Assembly: GCA_017428055.1 (NCBI GenBank)
Contig: JAFRRN010000102.1
Location: forward strand, 1 to 37,458
From: Prevotella sp.
Lineage (GTDB): Bacteria; Bacteroidota; Bacteroidia; Bacteroidales; Bacteroidaceae
Direction: 5' to 3'
DNA: 37,458 nucleotides
In this document: positions 4,832 through 35,404 of the stretch, piece by piece
Position numbering within the stretch: the stretch's first letter is position 1
Layout of the letters: each line of letters opens with the position of its first letter
Notes under the pieces: model-generated
Seen by the model: only the letters and a program-made list of their open reading frames with translations
What the model was told of the DNA's origin: nothing
Databases searched by the model: none
Made by a program: the position numbers and the translations under genes

Positions 4832-5495
4832 GTTCGATAGTCGTTTTGTCAATCAACGTGGGAATATCTGCCAAAGTGAATTGCTTGCGGAAGGTGATGG
4901 TCACATCATCGGCATCGAATCCCATTTGGGCAATCATCGGAATCAACGTGCGGGCGGCACTCAGGCGGGCATTCTCCAAGATGCCGAGCCTTGGGATGTC
5001 CTTGATGATAGAGTCGCGCCCCATGCGCTCGTAGGATGTCAGTTCCTCATCGGTGAAATGACTGCGGAGGATGGGGACATGCTGCTTCACTTGCTCGCGG
5101 TCGATATGTGTTGCCGTGAGCATAATCTGTGGGTCGGGGAGGATAATCTCCACCTTATTTCCCCTTTTCCTGACATTTCCCTCGCTAAACTCGGCAAAGT
5201 CAACGTAAGCCTTAAGTGTGGCATCGATGGGAATGGCAATCTTCCGCTCGCCAAACGGTAGGTCGATAGAGAACTCCTGGTTCATGATGGTACCCGTCAA
5301 CTTCTTCGTGTCGTCATGCGTGATGATCTTCCGCACTTGGCATTCGGCGGAATACAGGCGCGAGCATTTCTGTATCTGCATCGCCAACATGGGAATGGTG
5401 TCAATCTCTTTTCCTTTCCCGTCCGTCTGGCAACCATTGCAAGATGCGAAGAGAAAGGGCAATAATATAATAAGGTGGATAAACTTTTTCATCAT
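4815..5495 (-). CDS. DUF4230 domain lipoprotein
   Basis: 226 residues. The N-terminus is a lipoprotein signal (FIHLIILLPFLFASC, Cys19). The mature part follows the same plan as the next gene: MLAMQIQKCSRLYSAECQVRKI early, ERKIAIPIDATLKAYVDFAE, NKVEIILPDPQIMLTATHID, then FTDEELTSYERMGRDSIIKD and a helical C-terminus with LIPMIAQMGFDADDVTITF. The two DUF4230 proteins are thus diverged paralogues, one lipid-anchored and one with a transmembrane anchor, which suggests they work as a pair in the envelope. Two consecutive Met codons open the frame; either could be used. The gene follows the restriction endonuclease gene by 16 bases on the same strand. Confidence 0.8.
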   Translation of the reverse strand: MMKKFIHLIILLPFLFASCNGCQTDGKGKEIDTIPMLAMQIQKCSRLYSAECQVRKIITHDDTKKLTGTIMNQEFSIDLPFGERKIAIPIDATLKAYVDFAEFSEGNVRKRGNKVEIILPDPQIMLTATHIDREQVKQHVPILRSHFTDEELTSYERMGRDSIIKDIPRLGILENARLSAARTLIPMIAQMGFDADDVTITFRKQFTLADIPTLIDKTTIEHGKTK

Positions 5496-5511
5496 CAGAA
5501 TACAACAGACA

Positions 5512-6381
5512 TCATATTACAATACCTTCATTTTTAATCCTTGCCTCAACATCTGACCATGGACGTTCTAAGTGACCGATGGTTTCATGGAACATTCTCA
5601 ACACAACGGTTTCATCAATATCCATCCATTCCTTTTTACGCATAGCCCTACGCAAAACATAAATTTGGTCTATGCGGGAATACGCGGGGTCTACCGAATA
5701 ACTGACATCATATCTTTCTGTGACGGCAATGAAACGAGTATGAGGATTTCCACTCTTAATCTTCTCCGCAGTAGCAATAATGGTGTCCAACATGGTCTTG
5801 TCGATGTAGGTCTTGGCTTCAATGGCTACGGCAGGAATACGAATCTGTCTTGTGGGCTCATGGTTGATAGAAATGTCAAATGTACGATAAATGGCGTAAT
5901 CTTGGTCTTTCTCATTGATGCCAATTTCTGGTGACTGGATGAAGTTATCAAAATCCCTTGCCTTGAAATAAATATTGGAATATGCTTTCACGGCTCCACT
6001 ATCGAGTACATCATGACTATTCGTTTGGTGTTTGATATGATTCACGTAATCCTTAAATAAAAGGAAAAGAAACTCCTCAAGAATCGTAAGACGAAACTTA
6101 CCCTGTGATGAAAACGCACGGTCAAGTCCATGTTCGCGCATGAAATTATAGTATGTATTTAGATGTTGGACTTTTTTCCTGATGTCCTCATCATGATATG
6201 TTTTGATGTCCAACATGTTCTTTAAGTATTTAGCATATTCTGGAACAAGCAAGTCAAGTGCATTCTTCTCCAAATCTTTTAGATTGCTTTTATACTTAAC
6301 AAGCATATTCGAGGCATGGCTCAATTGAGGATAATCATCCTTTAACTGACTGATAAAGTCAAAATCACTTTTGTTTAACAT
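5512..6381 (-). CDS. Type II restriction endonuclease, Bpu10I-like
   Basis: 289 residues, cytoplasmic, with no signal peptide. The centre reads IPAVAIEAKTYIDKTMLDT: Glu188-Ala-Lys190 is the E-x-K half of a PD-(D/E)xK nuclease site, with an acidic partner probably at Asp159 or Asp161 (NEKDQDYAIYR). This block resembles the Bpu10I/BbvCI endonuclease family, which cleaves sites of the CCTNAGC/CCTCAGC kind. The N-terminal half is helical. It lies 4 bases after the C5 methyltransferase gene on the same strand, the normal M-then-R order that lets protection precede cleavage. Both genes are richer in A+T than their neighbours, a sign of horizontal acquisition. Bpu10I itself is a two-subunit enzyme, but only one subunit gene is present here. 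The recognition sequence cannot be read from the protein. Confidence 0.75.
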   Translation of the reverse strand: MLNKSDFDFISQLKDDYPQLSHASNMLVKYKSNLKDLEKNALDLLVPEYAKYLKNMLDIKTYHDEDIRKKVQHLNTYYNFMREHGLDRAFSSQGKFRLTILEEFLFLLFKDYVNHIKHQTNSHDVLDSGAVKAYSNIYFKARDFDNFIQSPEIGINEKDQDYAIYRTFDISINHEPTRQIRIPAVAIEAKTYIDKTMLDTIIATAEKIKSGNPHTRFIAVTERYDVSYSVDPAYSRIDQIYVLRRAMRKKEWMDIDETVVLRMFHETIGHLERPWSDVEARIKNEGIVI

Positions 6382-9803: not shown

Positions 9804-9882
9804 AAACAATTTGTTTGCGATACTTAAACAAATTGTTTACGTATGGCAAACAAACTGTTTAGGTATCGTAAACAAATAACAA
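9804..9882. repeat. Array of AAACAnnnTGTTT near-palindromes at exact 22-bp spacing
   Basis: Three 13-base near-palindromes, AAACAATTTGTTT (9804-9816), AAACAAATTGTTT (9826-9838) and AAACAAACTGTTT (9848-9860), plus a left half-copy AAACAAAT (9870-9877), start at intervals of exactly 22 bp. The 9-base spacers also show mirror symmetry (GCGATAC versus GTATCGT). As a result 9814-9841 and 9845-9872 form an inverted repeat with 28-base arms and six mismatches. It lies between convergent genes, so either protein binding or an RNA hairpin is possible. Confidence 0.75.
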
Positions 9883-9915
9883 AGGCCGCATGTACAGAAA
9901 ACACATGCGGCCTTT
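9881..9915 (-). terminator. Hairpin terminator for the TPR-ribH unit
   Basis: AAAGGCCGCATGT (9881-9893) and ACATGCGGCCTTT (9903-9915) form a perfect 13-bp stem with a 9-base loop. Read on the minus strand it is followed by a T-rich stretch (GTTATTTGTTT), which suits termination of the ribH transcript. On the plus strand the downstream sequence is not T-rich. Confidence 0.65.
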
Positions 9916-9945
9916 ATAGGATTCACATGCGGCCTTTATAGGATT
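9902..9945. repeat. 22-bp perfect tandem duplication
   Basis: Positions 9902-9923 and 9924-9945 are identical 22-base units, each holding ACATGCGGCCTTT and ending ATAGGATT. The duplication copies the right arm of the preceding hairpin, so the left arm can pair with either copy. The unit length equals the spacing of the adjacent palindrome array. Confidence 0.85.
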
Positions 9946-26440: not shown

Positions 26441-26848
26441 TCAACCTTCCCGCTCAAGAATCTGCATCATCTCGGCAGGGGTGACGACGATGGGAGCTTT
26501 CGGGAAGTGCTTAATGTTGCCCGTCACCAAATAGGCATCGTCCTTTGACAGGGCGACCTCATAGAATACCACATCCTTGGGGTCGGGGAAGAAATCATCA
26601 CATACTACTCGTTCACATCGTATTCCCCTTTCATATATGATTTCCAAATATTGACCAACCATCATCTTTGAGAAGTGAAACTTTGAACGATTCAGCACAT
26701 CCTCGTATTCATCAAAGATTTCCTCGTTATACAAGGGGATGATCCTTCCATGAAGCATCGCCTCAAGCACCTTGACTGTCGCCGCCTCGGTATTGTTAGT
26801 AAACAATGCCGAGACAAGCACATTGGTGTCAATCACAGCATAAATCAT
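26441..26848 (-). CDS. PIN-domain toxin (TIGR00305 type)
   Basis: 135 residues. PIN endoribonucleases cut RNA using a cluster of acidic residues. Visible here are Asp7 in YAVIDTNVLVSALF, Glu47 in EEIFDEYEDVLNR, Asp92 in PDPKDVVFYEVAL, and Asp103 or Asp104 in SKDDAYLVTGNIKHFP. The VTGNIKHFP end matches the group annotated as putative toxin component, PIN family. The start overlaps the stop of the upstream RelB-like antitoxin gene by 4 bases, the usual antitoxin-first order. The RNA target is not predictable. Confidence 0.9.
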   Translation of the reverse strand: MIYAVIDTNVLVSALFTNNTEAATVKVLEAMLHGRIIPLYNEEIFDEYEDVLNRSKFHFSKMMVGQYLEIIYERGIRCERVVCDDFFPDPKDVVFYEVALSKDDAYLVTGNIKHFPKAPIVVTPAEMMQILEREG

Positions 26849-27156
26849 GGTTTGCTCCTTTTTGATAACCTCTCTTCACGGGCCAACCTGATTTCTTCGT
26901 TGATCTCATCAAGCGTCAGGTCTTGAAGTCCATTCTCCTGTGCCTGTGCCCTTAAAGCACGGAAAGCCTCTATACCTCGCGTGTAGGTTCTTGGTTCAGA
27001 TGCCTTAATCTCAAACGGGATCTTCCTCTGCCTCACCACGGCGTTGGCAAAGATGTTCATTGCGGCATTCGCGCTCATGCCAAACTGGGCGCAGAGAGCG
27101 TCGAAGGATGCCTTTAGGTTGGAGTCCATGCGGACGGTCATTGATACTTGTGCCAT
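26845..27156 (-). CDS. RelB/DinJ family antitoxin
   Basis: 103 residues. The first 50 residues form a ribbon-helix-helix: MAQVSMTVRMDSNLKASFDA followed by LCAQFGMSANAAMNIFANAV and VRQRKIPFEI, typical of RelB/DinJ. The charged C-terminal half (FRALRAQAQENGLQDLTLDE, INEEIRLAREER) would wrap the toxin. As a dimer it should bind its own promoter, where a -7 element TATCTTTG lies 22-30 bases upstream of the ATG. The partner is a PIN protein rather than the RelE/YafQ fold usually paired with RelB/DinJ, a mixed pairing that is known to occur. Confidence 0.92.
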   Translation of the reverse strand: MAQVSMTVRMDSNLKASFDALCAQFGMSANAAMNIFANAVVRQRKIPFEIKASEPRTYTRGIEAFRALRAQAQENGLQDLTLDEINEEIRLAREERLSKRSKP

Positions 27157-27965: not shown

Positions 27966-29416
27966 ATGAAAAAGGCAAAAACAATTATTTGGACGGCAGC
28001 AATAATGCTGCTGATGATGCCGTTCCACGCCTACGGGCAGACGACGAAGGTGGGCGACATCAATGGCGACGGGAATGTTACGGTGTCAGACATTCTAGCG
28101 TTGGTGCAGATTGTTCTCAAAGAGGATGAAAATCAACCCACTGCCGAGGCGGGCGAGGCTATTGACTTGGGTCTACCCAGTGGTATCAAGTGGGCATCGT
28201 GCAATGTTGGTGCTACCAAACCCGAGGAATACGGTGGTTATTACGCTTGGGGTGAAACGGAGGAGAAAGAGGTGTACGATTGGAGTACCTATCTCCATTG
28301 CGACGGCTCATATAACACTTGCTACGACCTAGGATCCTGCATCAGCGGCACCAGTACGACATCGCCCACGTGAGATGGGGCGGAAAGTGGCGGATACCCA
28401 CATACAATGAAACAAGTGAGCTGATTGACAAATGCACAACGGAATGGACAACGCTAAACGGCGTTTATGGCCGTAAGTTCACAAGCAAAATCAACGGTAA
28501 CAGCATCTTCCTCCCCGCCGCCGGCTATCATAACGGCTCCAAACTCTACAGTGCAAAGTCCTACGGCAACTACTTATCGGGTACGCAGTATGCGAGTGAC
28601 AGCAACCGTTGCTACGGCTTGAGCTTCTATAATGGTGCCGTGTACAAGTCTAGCCTCTTTGGCCGTCCCAGCGGACTCACCGTTCGCCCCGTCACAGAAT
28701 CCTCCAATCAGAGTAACATTGATAAAACTATTTGTGACATTAACGGTGACGGAGATGTCACAGTTTCAGACGTGCTGGCGTTAGTGCAAATAATTCTCAA
28801 TGACGAGGAGCAAGAAGAACCGTCCGTGATAACGGGCGAGGCAATTGACTTGGGGCTACCCAGCGGAATCAAATGGGCATCGTGCAATGTGGGTGCCACA
28901 AAACCCGAAGAATACGGCGGATATTACGCCTGGGGCGAGACGGAGGAGAAAGAGGTTTACTATTGGAGTACCTATCAATGGTGCAATGGCTCCTCCAATA
29001 CCATGACAAAGTATTGCAGTAGCTCCTCCTACGGCACGGTGGACAACAAGACCGTCCTCGACCCAGAGGATGACGTGGCGCACGTGAAATGGGGTGGCAA
29101 CTGGCGGATGCCAACATACGAGGAGATAGGCGAGCTGATTGACAATTGCACGAGCGAATGGACGACGCTTAATGGCGTGAACGGCAGGAAGTTCACCAGC
29201 AACATCAACGGCAACAGCATCTTCCTGCCCGCCGCCGGCACCCGTAATGGCTCCTCGCTCAACGATGCGGAGTCCTACGGCTACTACTGGTCGGGTGCGC
29301 TGAGTGCGGGCTACAGCTACAACGCCTACTACTTGGACTTCGGCAGTGGCCACGTGTACAGGTACAGCTTCAGCAGCCGTTACAGCGGGCACACCGTTCG
29401 CCCCGTCACAGAATAG
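27966..29416 (+). pseudogene. Dockerin-like/Fib_succ_major surface protein, interrupted by a frameshift
   Basis: The frame from ATG 27966 starts with a signal peptide (MKKAKTIIWTAAIMLLMMPF to the AYGQ cleavage site). It has one dockerin-type calcium repeat (GDINGDGNVTVSDILALVQI) and the first part of a Fib_succ_major domain (DLGLPSGIKWASCNVGATKP, EEYGGYYAWGETEEKEVYDW). It stops at 28373 after 135 residues. The rest of the domain continues in another frame (YDIAHVRWGGKWRIPTYNE...TVRPVTE). A second module follows (DINGDGDVTVSDVLALVQII plus an intact Fib_succ domain) to the stop at 29416. Comparison with the second module puts the shift just after 28352, consistent with loss of one base from a C run in GGCACC. 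The cause may be mutation, phase variation or a sequencing error. No C-terminal sorting tail is seen. Confidence 0.8.
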
Positions 29417-29494: not shown

Positions 29495-32400
29495 ATGAGA
29501 AAAAGTATTTTAACCATGTTGGCATTCCTCTTCTTGATGGGAAACACTTTTGCCGACACCATTATAGTGAATGATGTGCAGATAATTTCTGGCGACCAAG
29601 CAGAAGTGACCGTCAGGCTTCAAACCACATCAAGTACGCAATATGCCGGATGGCAGATGGACTTCCGTTTGCCCGATGGTATTTCTGCCGTCACAAGCGG
29701 CCAAGGCCTACAAGGGCAATTGGGCGATTGTTGCGACGGAACATTCTCTTTAAACTCTAACCACCTGTCGAGTGGCGTTGACCGTTGGGTGGCTTTCTCC
29801 GCCTCTGCCCATGCCATCGATAGTGGTGGAGGCATCCTATTCACATTTCCCATCACGGCGGCCGAGACACTCACTATTGGCACGACATTGACGGCGACGG
29901 TAAAGAACATCATCTTCACAAGTCCGCAAGGAACGGAAGACATTACCATGGGCGATGTGACATTCAACATCACCGTTGGCGAGAAGCCCCAGCCGTGGGT
30001 ATTCGACCTGCAAGCCAGCATCGACTCGATTGCGGCAAGTGCCAATCTTGGCACGGCAAGCAACCCCGTTCAAATCCAAATACCCAATGAGTACCTGATC
30101 ACCTCGCCCATCACCGTACATGATAACGTGTTCGTCAGACTCACATGCGGAACGTTGAAACTTTCTGGCACTTTTGCAACCAGTAACGACTACGTATTCC
30201 TCATAGAGGGAGGGACAGAGAGCAAAAGCACCTTGTACCTCAAGAATGTGACCATTGATGCCAACAGCAGGGCATTGCATTATTCTTTCTTCAAGATACA
30301 AGGCGACCTGTATGTGGAAAGTGGCGTGACCTACAAGAACATCAACACCCAAACGGGAAAGGATAATGGTGGGTTCTATCTTAACGAAGGAACGCTTTAT
30401 GTCCAATCGGGAACGGTCAATGTTTCGGGTTCCCCCATTCGCGGCGGTGGTTACACGTATATTAGTGGTGGTGTGCTGAAAGGCAGCACTTGTGTCAACA
30501 TGAATGGCGACTGGGCGCAAGGCATTAGGACGGGTTCTGGACCAGGGGTTGAAATCAGTGGCGGTGAACTTGTTGCCACAAACATTGCCATCATTCCATT
30601 AGAGAGTACATACAGTGGCAGTGCTACTATATCCGAAGGCAAGGTTACAGCACCATCTTTGATGAAAGAAGGGAAATATTGCTATCTCTATATTAACGGC
30701 GGGCAAATAGATGTTACCCGACTTCTCACCTTGACGGGCGAGCCTTCCATCTCCGGCACACAGGTTTTCGTCAGCGGCAACGTCGGCTTAGACATCCAAA
30801 TGAATGTCGGCATACATGCCAGCTCCGCCTTGACCGATTCCTGGGCTTTTGACTGTTCATCTACAAACTTCAATACCATCAAGATGAACACAGGCGGCTT
30901 CGACCTCGGGACTACTGGCTCATTTGAGGAAAAGACATTGGTTGTCGGCATTGATTACGAATTGAAAAAGTCAGACTTTGAGAAAATGACATTCACAGGA
31001 GTACCCGACTCGTTGGAAATATATTATAATGAGGATGACTTCACGGTAAATGTACGTTTGAAATACTTGGGCATCGAGGTGAACGAGGAGAATTTCCCAG
31101 ACGGCAACTTCCGTAGCTTTATCCTCTCCCAGTGGTATGGCGAGGATGGATGGCTGTACCAGAGAGAAATCAAGGGTATAACGAGCATGGATGTTTCCAA
31201 CCAAGGCATTGCCGAACTGACGGGCATCAAGTATTTCACGGAGTTGAAGAAACTGAATGTCAGCGACAACCAACTTGTAAGCCTCGACCTCTCTTCAAAT
31301 GTCAAGCTTGACACCTTAAACTGTGACAACAACCAATTGGCAAGTCTCGACCTTTCCGCCAACACCACATTGGCATATTTGCGTTGTGCCGGTAACCAAC
31401 TGATGTGTATCACCTTGGCAGAGGGATGTGACCCCGACACGTACTATGAAGGAGAGAACATTGTCATCATTGGCTCTGGTGCTTCCCATGAACAATATTT
31501 GGAGAAGTCTGTCAAGATGTTGGCAAGTGGGAAGTATGGCATTAAGGTACCGTCAGACTTTGACTTCGCTCGTTTGAGTCAGTTTGTTGTAGATGGCGAG
31601 ACCTATTATCGAGGTGGATATTCCGACTTCCCCATCACAATGAATAGTGACAGGTATATCGTATTCCCATCGGCAAACGATCCAAGCAGCATCAGTTACA
31701 CATACGCATTCCCTTCCGAACCCAGTTACTTATATCCATACACGGACAATCGCTTAGAGGTATATGTAAACGTTACGGAGATTACTGACAAGCCCGTGGC
31801 GTTGCTCGGCGACGTGAACAACGACGGCGTCGTTTCAATCTCTGATGCCGTGTGCATCATCAGCTGGTTGCAAGAGAACACGTTGCCCGTATTCATTGAG
31901 GGAGCAGCAGATTACAACAAGGACGGCAGCATCACCGTGTCGGATGCCATCGCCATCATCCAGGCATTGCTCAACGAGGAGGTGAGTCCCGTCATCCCTG
32001 ACATCCCAGACGATGATGTTTCACACCTTTACCCCACGGCAAGCGCAAAGGGCATTGATGTGGAACTCCTCAATGCTCCACAATACACCGCATTCACCAT
32101 GGATGTGACACTGCCAAGCAATATGTCCATTGAAGACATCACGTTGGATGAAACCCGTGCGCCACATCACCAACTGGCATCCAAGCGACTTGCCAATGGT
32201 AAGTATAGGGTCATCGCCTACTCGCCAACCCTTGAAGGGTTCAACGGCAACGACGGAACATTGCTAACTATCAAGACAAACGGGAAGAGTACGGGCATGG
32301 TGAACATCGACAACATCCACTTCGTTGACATGAACGCACAGGAACATGCCCTCCACAATGCCAACGGCAACGTTACGGGTATCAACCAAGCCGAGGCGGG

Positions 32401-32584
32401 AACGAATGTTTATGCCGAAGGCAAGACCATCGTCGTGGATGCAGACCAAGACGAACTGCTCAAGGTCTATACCGCCACGGGCTTGCTCTACAAGACGCTT
32501 GACGTGAAGGCAGGACATAACCGCTTCGGCGACAACGCCACGGGCATCTACATCGTCAATGGAAAGAAGATAAACATCCGATAA
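29495..32584 (+). CDS. Multidomain surface protein: cohesin-like, beta-helix, LRR, dockerin, sorting tail
   Basis: 1029 residues. After a signal peptide (MRKSILTMLAFLFLMGNTFA) comes a cohesin-like beta-sandwich (about 22-165; QYAGWQMDFRLPDGISAV). A long region with right-handed beta-helix character follows (about 170-500; YLKNVTIDANSRALHYSFFK, GGFYLNEGTLYVQSGTVNVS). Next is a cap reading EVNEENFPDGNFRSFILSQW and a few leucine-rich repeats (LKKLNVSDNQLVSLDLSSNV). A full dockerin with two calcium loops (DVNNDGVVSISDAV; DYNKDGSITVSDAI) is near residues 770-825. A second cohesin-like domain (FTMDVTLPSNMSIEDI; LLTIKTNGKSTGMVNIDNIH) precedes a C-terminal T9SS-like tail ending GIYIVNGKKINIR. No enzyme domain is recognisable. 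Secretion to the cell surface is likely. Confidence 0.8.
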   Translation: MRKSILTMLAFLFLMGNTFADTIIVNDVQIISGDQAEVTVRLQTTSSTQYAGWQMDFRLPDGISAVTSGQGLQGQLGDCCDGTFSLNSNHLSSGVDRWVAFSASAHAIDSGGGILFTFPITAAETLTIGTTLTATVKNIIFTSPQGTEDITMGDVTFNITVGEKPQPWVFDLQASIDSIAASANLGTASNPVQIQIPNEYLITSPITVHDNVFVRLTCGTLKLSGTFATSNDYVFLIEGGTESKSTLYLKNVTIDANSRALHYSFFKIQGDLYVESGVTYKNINTQTGKDNGGFYLNEGTLYVQSGTVNVSGSPIRGGGYTYISGGVLKGSTCVNMNGDWAQGIRTGSGPGVEISGGELVATNIAIIPLESTYSGSATISEGKVTAPSLMKEGKYCYLYINGGQIDVTRLLTLTGEPSISGTQVFVSGNVGLDIQMNVGIHASSALTDSWAFDCSSTNFNTIKMNTGGFDLGTTGSFEEKTLVVGIDYELKKSDFEKMTFTGVPDSLEIYYNEDDFTVNVRLKYLGIEVNEENFPDGNFRSFILSQWYGEDGWLYQREIKGITSMDVSNQGIAELTGIKYFTELKKLNVSDNQLVSLDLSSNVKLDTLNCDNNQLASLDLSANTTLAYLRCAGNQLMCITLAEGCDPDTYYEGENIVIIGSGASHEQYLEKSVKMLASGKYGIKVPSDFDFARLSQFVVDGETYYRGGYSDFPITMNSDRYIVFPSANDPSSISYTYAFPSEPSYLYPYTDNRLEVYVNVTEITDKPVALLGDVNNDGVVSISDAVCIISWLQENTLPVFIEGAADYNKDGSITVSDAIAIIQALLNEEVSPVIPDIPDDDVSHLYPTASAKGIDVELLNAPQYTAFTMDVTLPSNMSIEDITLDETRAPHHQLASKRLANGKYRVIAYSPTLEGFNGNDGTLLTIKTNGKSTGMVNIDNIHFVDMNAQEHALHNANGNVTGINQAEAGTNVYAEGKTIVVDADQDELLKVYTATGLLYKTLDVKAGHNRFGDNATGIYIVNGKKINIR

Positions 32585-32609: not shown

Positions 32610-35132
32610 ATGCAAAGAAAGTTATTCATGACAATGCTGGCATTCCTCGCTTTCGTGGGGAATGCCTCCGCCGACAAGTTGAGCATCGCCGACGTGACCG
32701 TGGAGCAGGGCGGACAGGCCACGGTGGTGTTGAACTACGAGTTTGCCGAGCCGTATTATGGCTGGCAGATTGACATGCAATTGCCCAACGGCATCACCGT
32801 GGGCAAACGCACATTGAGTGATGCCTTGGACGAGGCGGGCTTCTCCGTCTCCTATTCCAAGCTGGCATCGGGCAAGAGCCGTTTCCTTGGCTACACGCTG
32901 GATGCCTCACAGATTCCCACGGGCAATGACGAACTATTCCACTTCGTCGTCAAGGCAGACGCGAACATGGAGCTTGGCACGTATGAGGTGACTGTGCCCT
33001 ACGTGGAGTTCACCAACTCCGCAGGGCAAGCCACGATCTTGGAGAGTGTGACATTCAACCTCACCGTGGTGGAGAAGCCGTTGGACATCGACGAGGTACA
33101 CTTCCCCGACGCGCCCTTCCGCCAATGGGTACTCGACAACGCGGATGAGGACAAGGACGGCAAGCTGACGAAGGATGAGATTCGCCGCGTCAAGGTCATC
33201 GATGCCCACGACCAGGGCATTAGGGACATCACGGGTATCGAGCATTTCGTCTACGTGGAGGAGGTGTATCTCTACAACAACTACATCCGCGAGGTAGACT
33301 TCACGTATAACGTGAGGCTGCGCAAGCTGCATGTGTACAACAACGAGATCACGAAGGTGAACGTGACGTACAATGTGGAGTTAGTGGAGTTTTACATCTA
33401 TAACAACTACATCACCACCATTGACGTGACGAAGAACGTGAAGCTGGTGCGGTTCCATATCTACAACAACTATATCACGCAGATTAACTTGCGGTATAAC
33501 GTGGAACTGGTGGACTTGTACATCTACAACAACCGACTGACGTACATCGACCTAACGTATAACATCAAGTTGGTGAGATTGCATATATACAACAACTACA
33601 TCACGCAAATCAACTTGCGGTATAACGTGGAGTTGGTGGACCTATACATCTACAACAACCGGCTGACCACAATAGACCTGACGTATAACATCAAGTTGGT
33701 GCGCTTGCACATTTACAACAACTACCTGACCGAGATCAACCTGCGGTACAACGTGGAGCTGGTGGACTTGTACATCTACAACAACCGGCTGACAACGATA
33801 GACTTGACGTATAACATCAAATTGGTAAGGTTGCATATCTACAACAACTACCTGACCGAAATCAACCTACGATATAACGTGGAGCTGGTGGACTTGTACA
33901 TCTACAACAACCGGCTGACCACGATAGACTTGACGTATAATGTCAAGTTGGTAAGGCTGTATATCTATAACAACTACCTGACGGAAATCAACGTGACCTA
34001 TAACGTGCTGTTGGAAGACCTTTATATATATAATAATGTGTTGACCACCATCGACCTGACGAAGAACGTGAGGCTGGTACGCTTGTACATCTACAACAAC
34101 AAGCTGACGGAGATCAACCTGACATACAATGTCTTGCTGGAAGACCTGTATATCTATAACAACAAGCTGGCCATCATCGACTTGACAAAGAACGTGAGAC
34201 TCGTCAGGGTATATCTCTACAACAACGAACTGACTTGGATAAAGTTGGCGGTAAACGTGGACATCATCGAAGCCGTCCTCAGTACGCAGAAACTGGTGCG
34301 CAAGGCCATCAGCGTGGATGGGGGCTATTATAAGTTCGTCGTGGTGAACGGCATTGACCTGACGAAGGTAAGCGACCTCACCGTCAACGGAATTGCGGTG
34401 GATGTCAGTTCCACGTACCTGACAGGGGACGGCTATTGGGTGTTCCCGTTTGGGGGCATTCCCACAAGCTTCTCCTACACCTACGACTCGGAGAATGGCG
34501 GAGCGGGCGGCATGGATGTCAACATCAGCTTTGGCGACGCGGATGCCGACGGCACGGAGACCATCAACGTGACGACCGACTATGGCTTCATCACCTATTG
34601 CTCGGAGAACGGGCTTGACTTCACCGACTCTGAGAACTTGAAGGCATACATCATCGCCAGCTACGACGGCGACATCGTGTATCTCTCACGGGTGACAGAG
34701 GTGCCACCCGCCACGGGACTGATCCTGAAAGCCGAGGCTGGGGAATATGAAATCCCGTTTGCCGTGACAGACGACAGCTATGTGGTGAACATGCTCGTCG
34801 GCGTGAATGAACCCACGGTGATTGAGCCGACGGAAGGGATATACACCAACTTCATCCTTGCCGACGGCAACAGGGGCTTGGGCTTCTACCGCGTGAAGGA
34901 AGAGGGTACGATTGCCGCCCACCGCGCCTATTTGCAACTGCCCACGGCGAAGATTGAGAATGGTGCCAAGTATTTCAGGCTGATGTTTGACGATGGCACG
35001 ACATCCATCCAAGGCATCGAGACACAGGATGAGAATGGGGCATACTACGATTTGCAAGGTCGCCGCTATGAGAATAAGCCCGTCATGCGTGGTATCTACA
35101 TCCATCAGGGCAAGAAGATGGTTGTGAAGTAA
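32610..35132 (+). CDS. Surface protein with cohesin-like domain and sixteen 21-residue LRRs
   Basis: 840 residues. The signal peptide (MQRKLFMTMLAFLAFVGNAS) closely resembles that of the preceding protein. Residues about 22-158 are cohesin-like (YYGWQIDMQLPNGITVGKRT; GTYEVTVPYVEFTNSAGQAT). A cap with a canonical EF-hand loop, DEDKDGKLTKDE, leads into sixteen LRRs of 21 residues (216-551). These alternate between an LVDLYIYNN/IDLTYNIK form and an LVRLHIYNN/INLRYNVE form. The C-terminal part has GDADADGTETINVTTDYGF and AYIIASYDGDIVYLSRVTEV, then a T9SS-like tail (YYDLQGRRYENKPVMRGIYI...GKKMVVK). It is 25 bases downstream of the previous gene, so the two are co-transcribed. It is likely a surface adhesin or scaffold; ligand unknown. 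Confidence 0.8.
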   Translation: MQRKLFMTMLAFLAFVGNASADKLSIADVTVEQGGQATVVLNYEFAEPYYGWQIDMQLPNGITVGKRTLSDALDEAGFSVSYSKLASGKSRFLGYTLDASQIPTGNDELFHFVVKADANMELGTYEVTVPYVEFTNSAGQATILESVTFNLTVVEKPLDIDEVHFPDAPFRQWVLDNADEDKDGKLTKDEIRRVKVIDAHDQGIRDITGIEHFVYVEEVYLYNNYIREVDFTYNVRLRKLHVYNNEITKVNVTYNVELVEFYIYNNYITTIDVTKNVKLVRFHIYNNYITQINLRYNVELVDLYIYNNRLTYIDLTYNIKLVRLHIYNNYITQINLRYNVELVDLYIYNNRLTTIDLTYNIKLVRLHIYNNYLTEINLRYNVELVDLYIYNNRLTTIDLTYNIKLVRLHIYNNYLTEINLRYNVELVDLYIYNNRLTTIDLTYNVKLVRLYIYNNYLTEINVTYNVLLEDLYIYNNVLTTIDLTKNVRLVRLYIYNNKLTEINLTYNVLLEDLYIYNNKLAIIDLTKNVRLVRVYLYNNELTWIKLAVNVDIIEAVLSTQKLVRKAISVDGGYYKFVVVNGIDLTKVSDLTVNGIAVDVSSTYLTGDGYWVFPFGGIPTSFSYTYDSENGGAGGMDVNISFGDADADGTETINVTTDYGFITYCSENGLDFTDSENLKAYIIASYDGDIVYLSRVTEVPPATGLILKAEAGEYEIPFAVTDDSYVVNMLVGVNEPTVIEPTEGIYTNFILADGNRGLGFYRVKEEGTIAAHRAYLQLPTAKIENGAKYFRLMFDDGTTSIQGIETQDENGAYYDLQGRRYENKPVMRGIYIHQGKKMVVK
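33255..34262 (+). repeat. Sixteen 63-bp LRR-coding repeats with 126-bp higher-order period
   Basis: Each 63-bp unit codes one LRR centred on YNN. In the middle of the array (about 33444-33947) units alternate in two types, so the real period is 126 bp. Copies differ mainly at third codon positions (for example LHIY encoded as ttgcatatatac, ttgcacatttac and ttgcatatctac) while the protein is constant. This indicates expansion followed by selection on the protein. Confidence 0.9.
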
Positions 35133-35155
35133 TCATTCATTCAATGAGTAAGGTT

Positions 35156-35347
35156 ATGGAAACAAACAATCAATATATCCGGCCCAAGATAGAGGTCGTG
35201 GACTTCTATAGCGACGAGATGATGAAGGACTTCGTGCCATACTCTGAGACGGAGGTCATTGACGGGCCTATCGTAGATACCGACCCCGATGACGGCTTGA
35301 ATCCTGGTGTGGCATTGGGCAAAGGCAATAGCGTTTGGGATGAGTAA
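35156..35347 (+). CDS. Small acidic peptide at the end of the surface operon
   Basis: 63 residues from ATG 35156 (METNNQYIRPKIEVVDFYSD); an ATG four codons upstream (35144) is also possible, but AAGG lies just before 35156. The N-terminal half (YIRPKIEVVDFYSDEMMKDF) resembles the KPxIEVVEL-type opening seen in many short Bacteroidales proteins of unknown function. The rest is acidic and Gly/Asp/Pro-rich (DGPIVDTDPDDGLNPGVALG, ending KGNSVWDE). There is no signal peptide, cysteine or transmembrane helix. It follows the LRR gene within 25 bases and precedes a strong terminator, so it is the last gene of the operon. A precursor-peptide role is conceivable but no maturation enzyme is nearby. Confidence 0.65.
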   Translation: METNNQYIRPKIEVVDFYSDEMMKDFVPYSETEVIDGPIVDTDPDDGLNPGVALGKGNSVWDE

Positions 35348-35359
35348 ACATATATAAGG

Positions 35360-35399
35360 AAAAAGGCTGGCATTATTCTTGATGAGTGCCAGCCTTTTT
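35360..35399. terminator. Bidirectional intrinsic terminator
   Basis: AAAAAGGCTGGCA (35360-35372) pairs perfectly with TGCCAGCCTTTTT (35387-35399) around a 14-base loop. The A-run and T-run at its ends allow termination of both the plus-strand surface operon and the minus-strand thrC transcript. Confidence 0.9.
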
Positions 35400-35404
35400 C
35401 CTTA

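Follow-up and report, generated by a model that had tools for sequence, protein, structure and literature searches.

The leucine-rich repeat (LRR) class named IRREKO is built from a 21-residue unit, LxxLxLxxNxLxxLDLxxNxx, with a nested 10/11 pattern, according to the available part of its description by Matsushima et al. (2010, PMC2946307). The same report remarks that the residue at position 2 is alternately positively and negatively charged in successive repeats of some proteins from Clostridium, Cytophaga, and Flavobacterium, and suggests that stabilizing polar interactions result; the principle of charge alternation has been in print since then. The solved structure of a protein from a different LRR class has a ladder of histidines at position 3, on its concave side, as stated in the available part of that report (PMC9525666). 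Internalin J, a Listeria LRR protein of 21-residue rungs, is reported to bind the mucin MUC2, with a suggested role in adhesion, in the part of the source at hand (PMC7291126).

The window, which is the whole 37,458-nucleotide stretch of Prevotella sp. DNA analysed here, contains a gene for an 840-residue protein with sixteen such repeats (Table 1). Two Prevotella intermedia LRR proteins may be related by kind: AdpC, reportedly internalin-like, and AdpF, which is said to interact with eukaryotic cells. The likeness, judged by the titles of the papers, is that these are LRR proteins of a Prevotella species. The array of the window protein alternates in charge between neighboring rungs at two positions. 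The alternation is real, and it is an extreme case of a weaker stacking tendency of the class.

Table 1 Features of the LRR gene in the window.
Feature	Positions	Strand	Basis
Complete gene (840 aa) for an LRR protein, probably secreted and surface-anchored	32610..35132	+	Single open frame; Pfam LRR_4
Probable signal peptide, residues 1-21	32610..32672	+	By eye
N-terminal domain, residues 22-157, common to upstream gene 29495-32584	32673..33080	+	Alignment
N-terminal cap, residues 158-215, with EF-hand-like loop	33081..33254	+	Alignments
Sixteen 21-residue LRRs, residues 216-551	33255..34262	+	Tandem array, 126-base period
Most regular block, seven rungs, A and B forms in turn	33507..33947	+	Repeat alignment
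Solenoid C-terminal cap region, residues 552-640	34263..34529	+	Common to paralogue L002; right border by eye
Probable short T9SS C-terminal signal, residues 798-840	35001..35129	+	By eye, left border too

The open reading frame matches Pfam LRR_4 with 92.3 bits. The putative signal peptide, recognized by eye, has a basic start, a hydrophobic core, and small residues ahead of the cut. The N-terminal domain agrees with the N-terminus of the upstream protein at 38% in the alignment, and BLASTP gives 36% over residues 3-176 (E 3e-23). The matches of this domain in Pfam are weak and below the cut-off, and a comparison with solved structures returned a single, insignificant match (E 0.72); at a guess, its fold may be cohesin-like. 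The N-terminal cap can be aligned to internalin J (PDB 3bz5) and to a paralogous protein, L002, whose gene lies on a different contig of this genome; EF-hand models match the cap weakly, under their cut-offs. The C-terminal cap region is 40% identical to that of L002 over 113 residues. Across the window, Rfam gave no match at or above the gathering score of a family.

The array consists of 16 units of 63 bases and spans exactly the positions and residues listed in Table 1. Numbered by the scheme of the class (L1 xx L4 x I6 xx N9 x L11 xx I14 D15 L16 xx N19 x x21), all 16 repeats have the motif YNN at positions 7-9. The array as the sequence-only reading had described it, sixteen repeats of 21 residues with an invariant YNN core, is therefore confirmed to the base. 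Position 3 reads EKERDRDRDRDRDRDR along the sixteen rungs and position 21 reads REKEKEKEKEKLRLRD. All 15 neighboring pairs are opposite in charge at position 3. At position 21, which is charged in 14 of the 16 repeats, the sign alternates wherever there is a charge: 11 of the 15 neighboring pairs are opposite, none is like, and four include a leucine. That reading had also recognized the alternation of Asp with Arg and of Lys with Glu, but placed it in the central repeats; at position 3 it runs through all sixteen. The divergent end rungs keep the sign of position 3 with other residues, Glu for Asp and Lys for Arg.

The seven rungs of the most regular block take two forms in turn, A (LVDLYIYNNRLTxIDLTYN(I/V)K) and B (LVRLHIYNNY(I/L)T(Q/E)INLRYNVE). 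The central rungs alternate additionally at positions 5 (Y/H), 10 (R/Y), 15 (D/N), and 17 (T/R). Position 7 is Tyr and position 5 is Tyr or His in 16/16 repeats, and position 2 is mostly Val (12/16). In the central rungs, position 21 and the position 3 that follows it have the same sign in the sequence (ELVD, KLVR). The complementarity is accordingly one between rungs, not one inside a strand segment.

The array belongs to the IRREKO class, first (non-Cys) subtype, as far as the consensus is given in the available part of the description (PMC2946307). Each of the 16 repeats has 21 residues, hydrophobic residues at positions 1, 4, 6, 11, 14, and 16, and Asn at positions 9 and 19, while Asp or Asn is found at position 15 in 15 of them. 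Unlike the proteins of the 2010 remark, the window protein alternates at positions 3 and 21 and through the whole array, not at position 2. Our search of open-licence full-text papers turned up neither alternation at positions 3 and 21 nor alternation along an entire array. The histidine ladder of the other LRR class likewise stacks the position-3 residue on itself along the concave face, but there the same residue recurs on successive rungs, as given in the available part of that report (PMC9525666).

The best solved relative is the LRR domain of internalin J (3bz5, E 3.8e-31, residues 13-347 of the 441-residue query). The alignment follows the rungs, interrupted by two gaps of one residue each, and includes the cap, so that both the cap and the 21-residue rungs are matched. 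Internalin J has Cys at position 6 in most of the aligned rungs, and its Cys ladder is reportedly named in the title of a paper; the window array has no such ladder, with Ile, Leu, or Val at position 6 in all 16 repeats and Cys in none. The usual Cys-type repeats had been set against this array before, and rightly so for position 6, since the relatives collected in our survey have Cys there in 763 of 900 repeats (86 arrays before thinning) and YNN at positions 7-9 in 42 of the 900. As we read the alignment, internalin J alternates between Lys and Glu at position 13 over six rungs, followed by Glu. In contrast to the window protein, it does not alternate at position 3 in the aligned stretch.

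The array bears the marks of duplication in pairs. Tandem Repeats Finder reports a period of 126 bases with 6.3 copies. Repeats of the same parity are on average identical in 71% of their bases and 69% of their residues (56 pairs), versus 62% and 55% for repeats of opposite parity (64 pairs). The period and the likeness within parity indicate that the unit of growth was, most simply, a pair of rungs. The regular alternation was thus inherited from the duplicated unit, and shuffling the order of the repeats in the window array is the wrong null model for it.

The repeats are under purifying selection, as measured by pN/pS from NG86-type counts. For eight central repeats hand-picked as most alike, the ratio is 0.079 in the A form (rungs 4, 6, 8, and 10; pS 0.426, pN 0.034) and 0.076 in the B form (rungs 3, 5, 7, and 9; pS 0.662, pN 0.050). 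Over all eight repeats of each form it rises to 0.33 for A and 0.30 for B, and it is 0.43 for the 15 neighboring A-B pairs. The silent differences between copies had been taken as a sign that the alternating pattern was selected. They do demonstrate conservation of the protein, but because the alternation was inherited with the unit they do not speak for its selection at the origin.

A gene covering the whole length of the window gene, at 93% identity, lies at L006:2282-4678 in a metagenome-assembled genome (MAG) of Prevotella sp. RGIG7572 from the omasum of a water buffalo. It is the sole ortholog found among the three loci that the search returned. Its array has 14 repeats, exactly one A/B pair fewer than the 16 in the window, and both parity and alternation are kept. 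The 14 paired repeats differ at 92 of 294 codons, and 72 of these differences are silent. The 28 codon pairs at positions 3 and 21 include seven that differ, five silently and two by exchange of Arg and Lys, and no sign changes; about 20% of random replacements at the two positions would keep the sign (40/213 and 36/180), a comparison of small numbers in which the pairing of the middle rungs is uncertain owing to internal turnover of units. Rung 6 of L006, for instance, is most like rung 4 of the window. Position 2 of rungs 2 and 3 is Glu and Lys in L006 versus Val and Val in the window, a complementary pair that was gained or lost together.

An assembly artefact was considered as the source of the array and ruled out, as the independent MAG contains the same array and the repeat copies are not identical at silent sites. 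In each of the two assemblies, the number of repeats may nevertheless be wrong by one unit.

Paralogue L002 matches the caps and the tail of the window protein but has two rungs in place of the long array and lacks the alternation. Homologues of this kind had been named as evidence against the pattern, and L002 is in part such a case; more widely, none of the 65 other arrays surveyed below is opposite in charge at every interface of one position. Since L002 combines matching caps and tail with two rungs, and the neighboring gene has about three, we read the long array as a probable expansion between older caps.

The best non-self scores were 177 bits in the genus (398 genomes), 149 bits in the phylum (395 genomes), and 195 bits in the family (399 genomes), against a self score of 642 bits, and nothing near 642 bits was found in 298 genomes of relatives; these searches overlap, and few candidates were scored per genome. 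The stretch 34200-34540 is matched at E up to 1e-6 in 3 of the 398 genus genomes, its own included. Viral contigs gave six pattern matches and no relatives, and 20 plasmid records contained LRR matches, all below 60% identity and none covering 80% of the query.

To place the array in its class, we surveyed the best-scoring matches to the window protein: 29 non-self loci of the genus, 60 picked further, and 24 from the phylum and family. Arrays were defined by a motif of our own and had to hold at least six repeats; 80 of 89 genus loci and 16 of 20 phylum loci gave one. We thinned rows that were at least 60% identical across 70% of the shorter one, which reduced the arrays from 86 to 46 in the genus, from 22 to 19 outside it, and from 114 to 65 overall. 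L001-L009 were left out as belonging to the genome of the window, being the ortholog, or being weak matches. The null model was 2000 shuffles within arrays.

In the genus (46 arrays, 514 repeats), neighboring charges are opposite far more often than like at position 2 (68:11), position 21 (58:14), position 10 (38:12), and position 8 (27:8), and 0, 0, 0, and 1 of the 2000 shuffles, respectively, were as low. Smaller effects are seen at position 5 (20:12, 14/2000 shuffles) and position 13 (13:7, 8/2000). Between rungs two apart, there is an excess of like charges at positions 2, 8, 10, and 21 (z 2.0 to 4.2), which is also seen in the pooled 65 arrays. Outside the genus (19 arrays, 169 repeats), the ratios are 26:5 at position 2, 17:2 at position 21, 12:8 at position 10, and 11:1 at position 8, with 0, 3, 0, and 4 of 2000 shuffles as low for positions 2, 8, 10, and 21; position 5 (1:2) does not replicate the effect in the genus, and the two-rung reversal is not significant in these 19 arrays (z 1.0 to 1.9). 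Among the 441 pairs of positions compared over the 65 arrays, the most complementary by z are 10-10, 2-2, 21-21, and 8-8. All four are same-position pairs, as in-register stacking predicts, which supports stacking of complementary charges between rungs. Not every position is complementary: in the class, like charges predominate at 15 and 18 (Asp and Lys columns).

Position 3 behaves differently. Its neighbors are 22 opposite to 19 like in the genus (156/2000 shuffles as low) and 9 to 5 outside it (279/2000), neither of which is significant, and it shows no like-charge excess two rungs apart in the genus (z 0.2). The complementary stacking proposed from the sequence of the window protein is thus supported for the class at positions 2, 8, 10, and 21, and the position-3 ladder is special to the window protein, not a class rule. 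Net opposite contacts per interface are highest in L006 (2.0) and the window array (1.87), compared with a median of 0.38 over 67 rows. Ranked by the best single position, the window comes first among the 67 arrays with 15, followed by L051 and L006, tied at 13. Strictly alternating runs of at least nine rungs are present in 3 of the 86 genus arrays, at one position each. These are L051 at position 10, L050 at position 15, and L015 at position 21, with runs of 10, 9, and 9 rungs, respectively.

The alternation could be a by-product of duplication, if the amplified two-repeat unit carried opposite charges at 3 and 21 by chance and general purifying selection has kept them since, without selection for salt bridges in particular. 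The 126-base period and the greater likeness of same-parity repeats fit such an origin, and a suitable starting pair is not rare in the class, where 58 of 621 interfaces have at least two net complementary positions and eight of the 621 combine opposite charges at 3 with opposite charges at 21. However, interfaces with at least two net complementary positions are more frequent (0.093) than after shuffling of repeat order (mean 0.041), and the class excess persists in 37 genus arrays without two-repeat periodicity (0, 8, 2, and 0 of 2000 shuffles at positions 2, 8, 10, and 21). The signs of position 3 are, moreover, kept in the divergent end rungs. We consider a by-product doubtful, though it deserves serious weight.

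We propose instead, with a probability of roughly 60%, that the window protein is a surface cargo of type IX secretion (T9SS) whose 16-rung solenoid of the IRREKO/internalin-J type arose from duplication of a 126-base unit, is stabilized by two charge ladders, and offers a ligand-binding face. The solenoid would have grown between fixed caps by two rungs at a time. With every rung 21 residues long, each position would stack on itself; position 3 would lie on the concave strand face and position 21 just ahead of the strand, and the alternation of acid and base at both would form two charge-complementary ladders along the solenoid. The ladders may stabilize a long solenoid whose rungs are nearly alike, counter the repulsion expected between rungs of identical charge, and make a slip by one rung costly. 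The solenoid would then project a face that serves as the binding surface for a ligand. The fold in this proposal, a solenoid of short beta-strands in a stack, is assigned by homology to 3bz5, and the salt-bridge geometry is deduced from homology and the constant repeat length; the anti-slip and adhesion roles are inferred as well.

The main functional rival is that the alternation serves binding, with stability secondary: a striped concave face of Asp/Arg at position 3, Tyr/His at position 5, and Tyr at position 7 might fit a ligand, for instance a repeating polymer or glycan. The invariance of Tyr at position 7 and of Tyr or His at position 5, the restriction of position-3 complementarity to the window protein, its probable location on the surface, and the MUC2 binding reported in the available part of the internalin J source (PMC7291126) agree with this. 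Position 21, however, alternates too, though it is outside the strand, and we regard a primary binding role as unlikely. A sign-alternating face is also self-complementary after a shift by one rung. Two solenoids might thus pair face to face at that offset, with the positive stripes of one molecule or cell meeting the negative stripes of another; since curved concave faces pair poorly, such pairing is highly improbable. Equally far-fetched is a lattice-matched template, in which a two-rung stripe of acid and base, and of Tyr and His, in turn on a face of low curvature would hold a polymer with a repeat of like length, such as beta-1,4-glucan, and the even number of rungs would set the bound length. 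The stripe period would be roughly 10 Å if rungs are about 5 Å apart, and the cellobiose repeat of beta-1,4-glucan is about 10 Å.

With stabilization by charge ladders as the preferred reading, the array is a natural example of charge-complementary stacking in a repeat protein, complete along sixteen rungs. The survey turns the 2010 remark on position 2 into a measured class tendency at positions 2, 8, 10, and 21. This may be of use in the design of long stable solenoids and in judging register in a common class of Bacteroidota surface proteins, for which none of the other 67 arrays offers as clear a test case as the window protein and its ortholog L006.

The export route is suggested by the C-terminus and by the genome. 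Short T9SS C-terminal signals with motifs B, D, and E were described for Prevotella intermedia and found with custom models, according to the available part of the report (PMC11969387). By eye, the tail of the window protein fits that description as far as it is given there (PMC11969387): residues 798-840 contain an Ile at the cleavage site, a Motif B of Tyr, Gly, and basic residues, a GxY-Ile Motif D, and a basic Motif E. The tail of paralogue L002 is alike (52% over 48 columns). Neither the last 110 nor the last 289 residues matched any NCBIfam sorting model at E values up to 10. The genome encodes the T9SS components SprA (2655 bits) and PorV (426 bits), both over the cut-off. We infer that the protein is exported by the T9SS and anchored at the surface. 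Adhesion is our default guess for its role, by analogy with the MUC2 binding reported for internalin J in the available part of that source (PMC7291126).

The gene immediately upstream (29495-32584, +) contains about three rungs, in which position 6 is Val or Cys. It and L006:13-2256 have a C-terminal half in common between the two species, composed of the cap, LRRs, and a dockerin. Ahead of this half, the window gene carries the N-terminal domain of the LRR gene and other sequence, whereas the L006 gene carries DUF285/BspA-type repeats. The difference looks like a domain exchange. L006:13-2256 begins at a contig end, and its true N-terminus may be missing.

Further upstream, the overlapping frames 27966-28373 and 28319-29416 (+) each contain a dockerin-like stretch, and the second also contains Lcl_C. 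The gene may be broken or frameshifted, since similar sequence goes on in the second frame roughly from the point where the first one stops. At 26441-27156 (-), a RelB-type antitoxin gene and the overlapping PIN-domain gene that follows it are likely a toxin-antitoxin pair. In L006, a P-loop gene (AGPNGSGKTT; 4971-5585, -) is located between the LRR gene and a threonine-synthase-like gene; the gap in the same place of the window (35133-35404, about 270 bases) could not accommodate it. At 9804-9945, between listed open reading frames, are two short tandem arrays with 3.4 and 2.0 copies, each of its own 22-base repeat.
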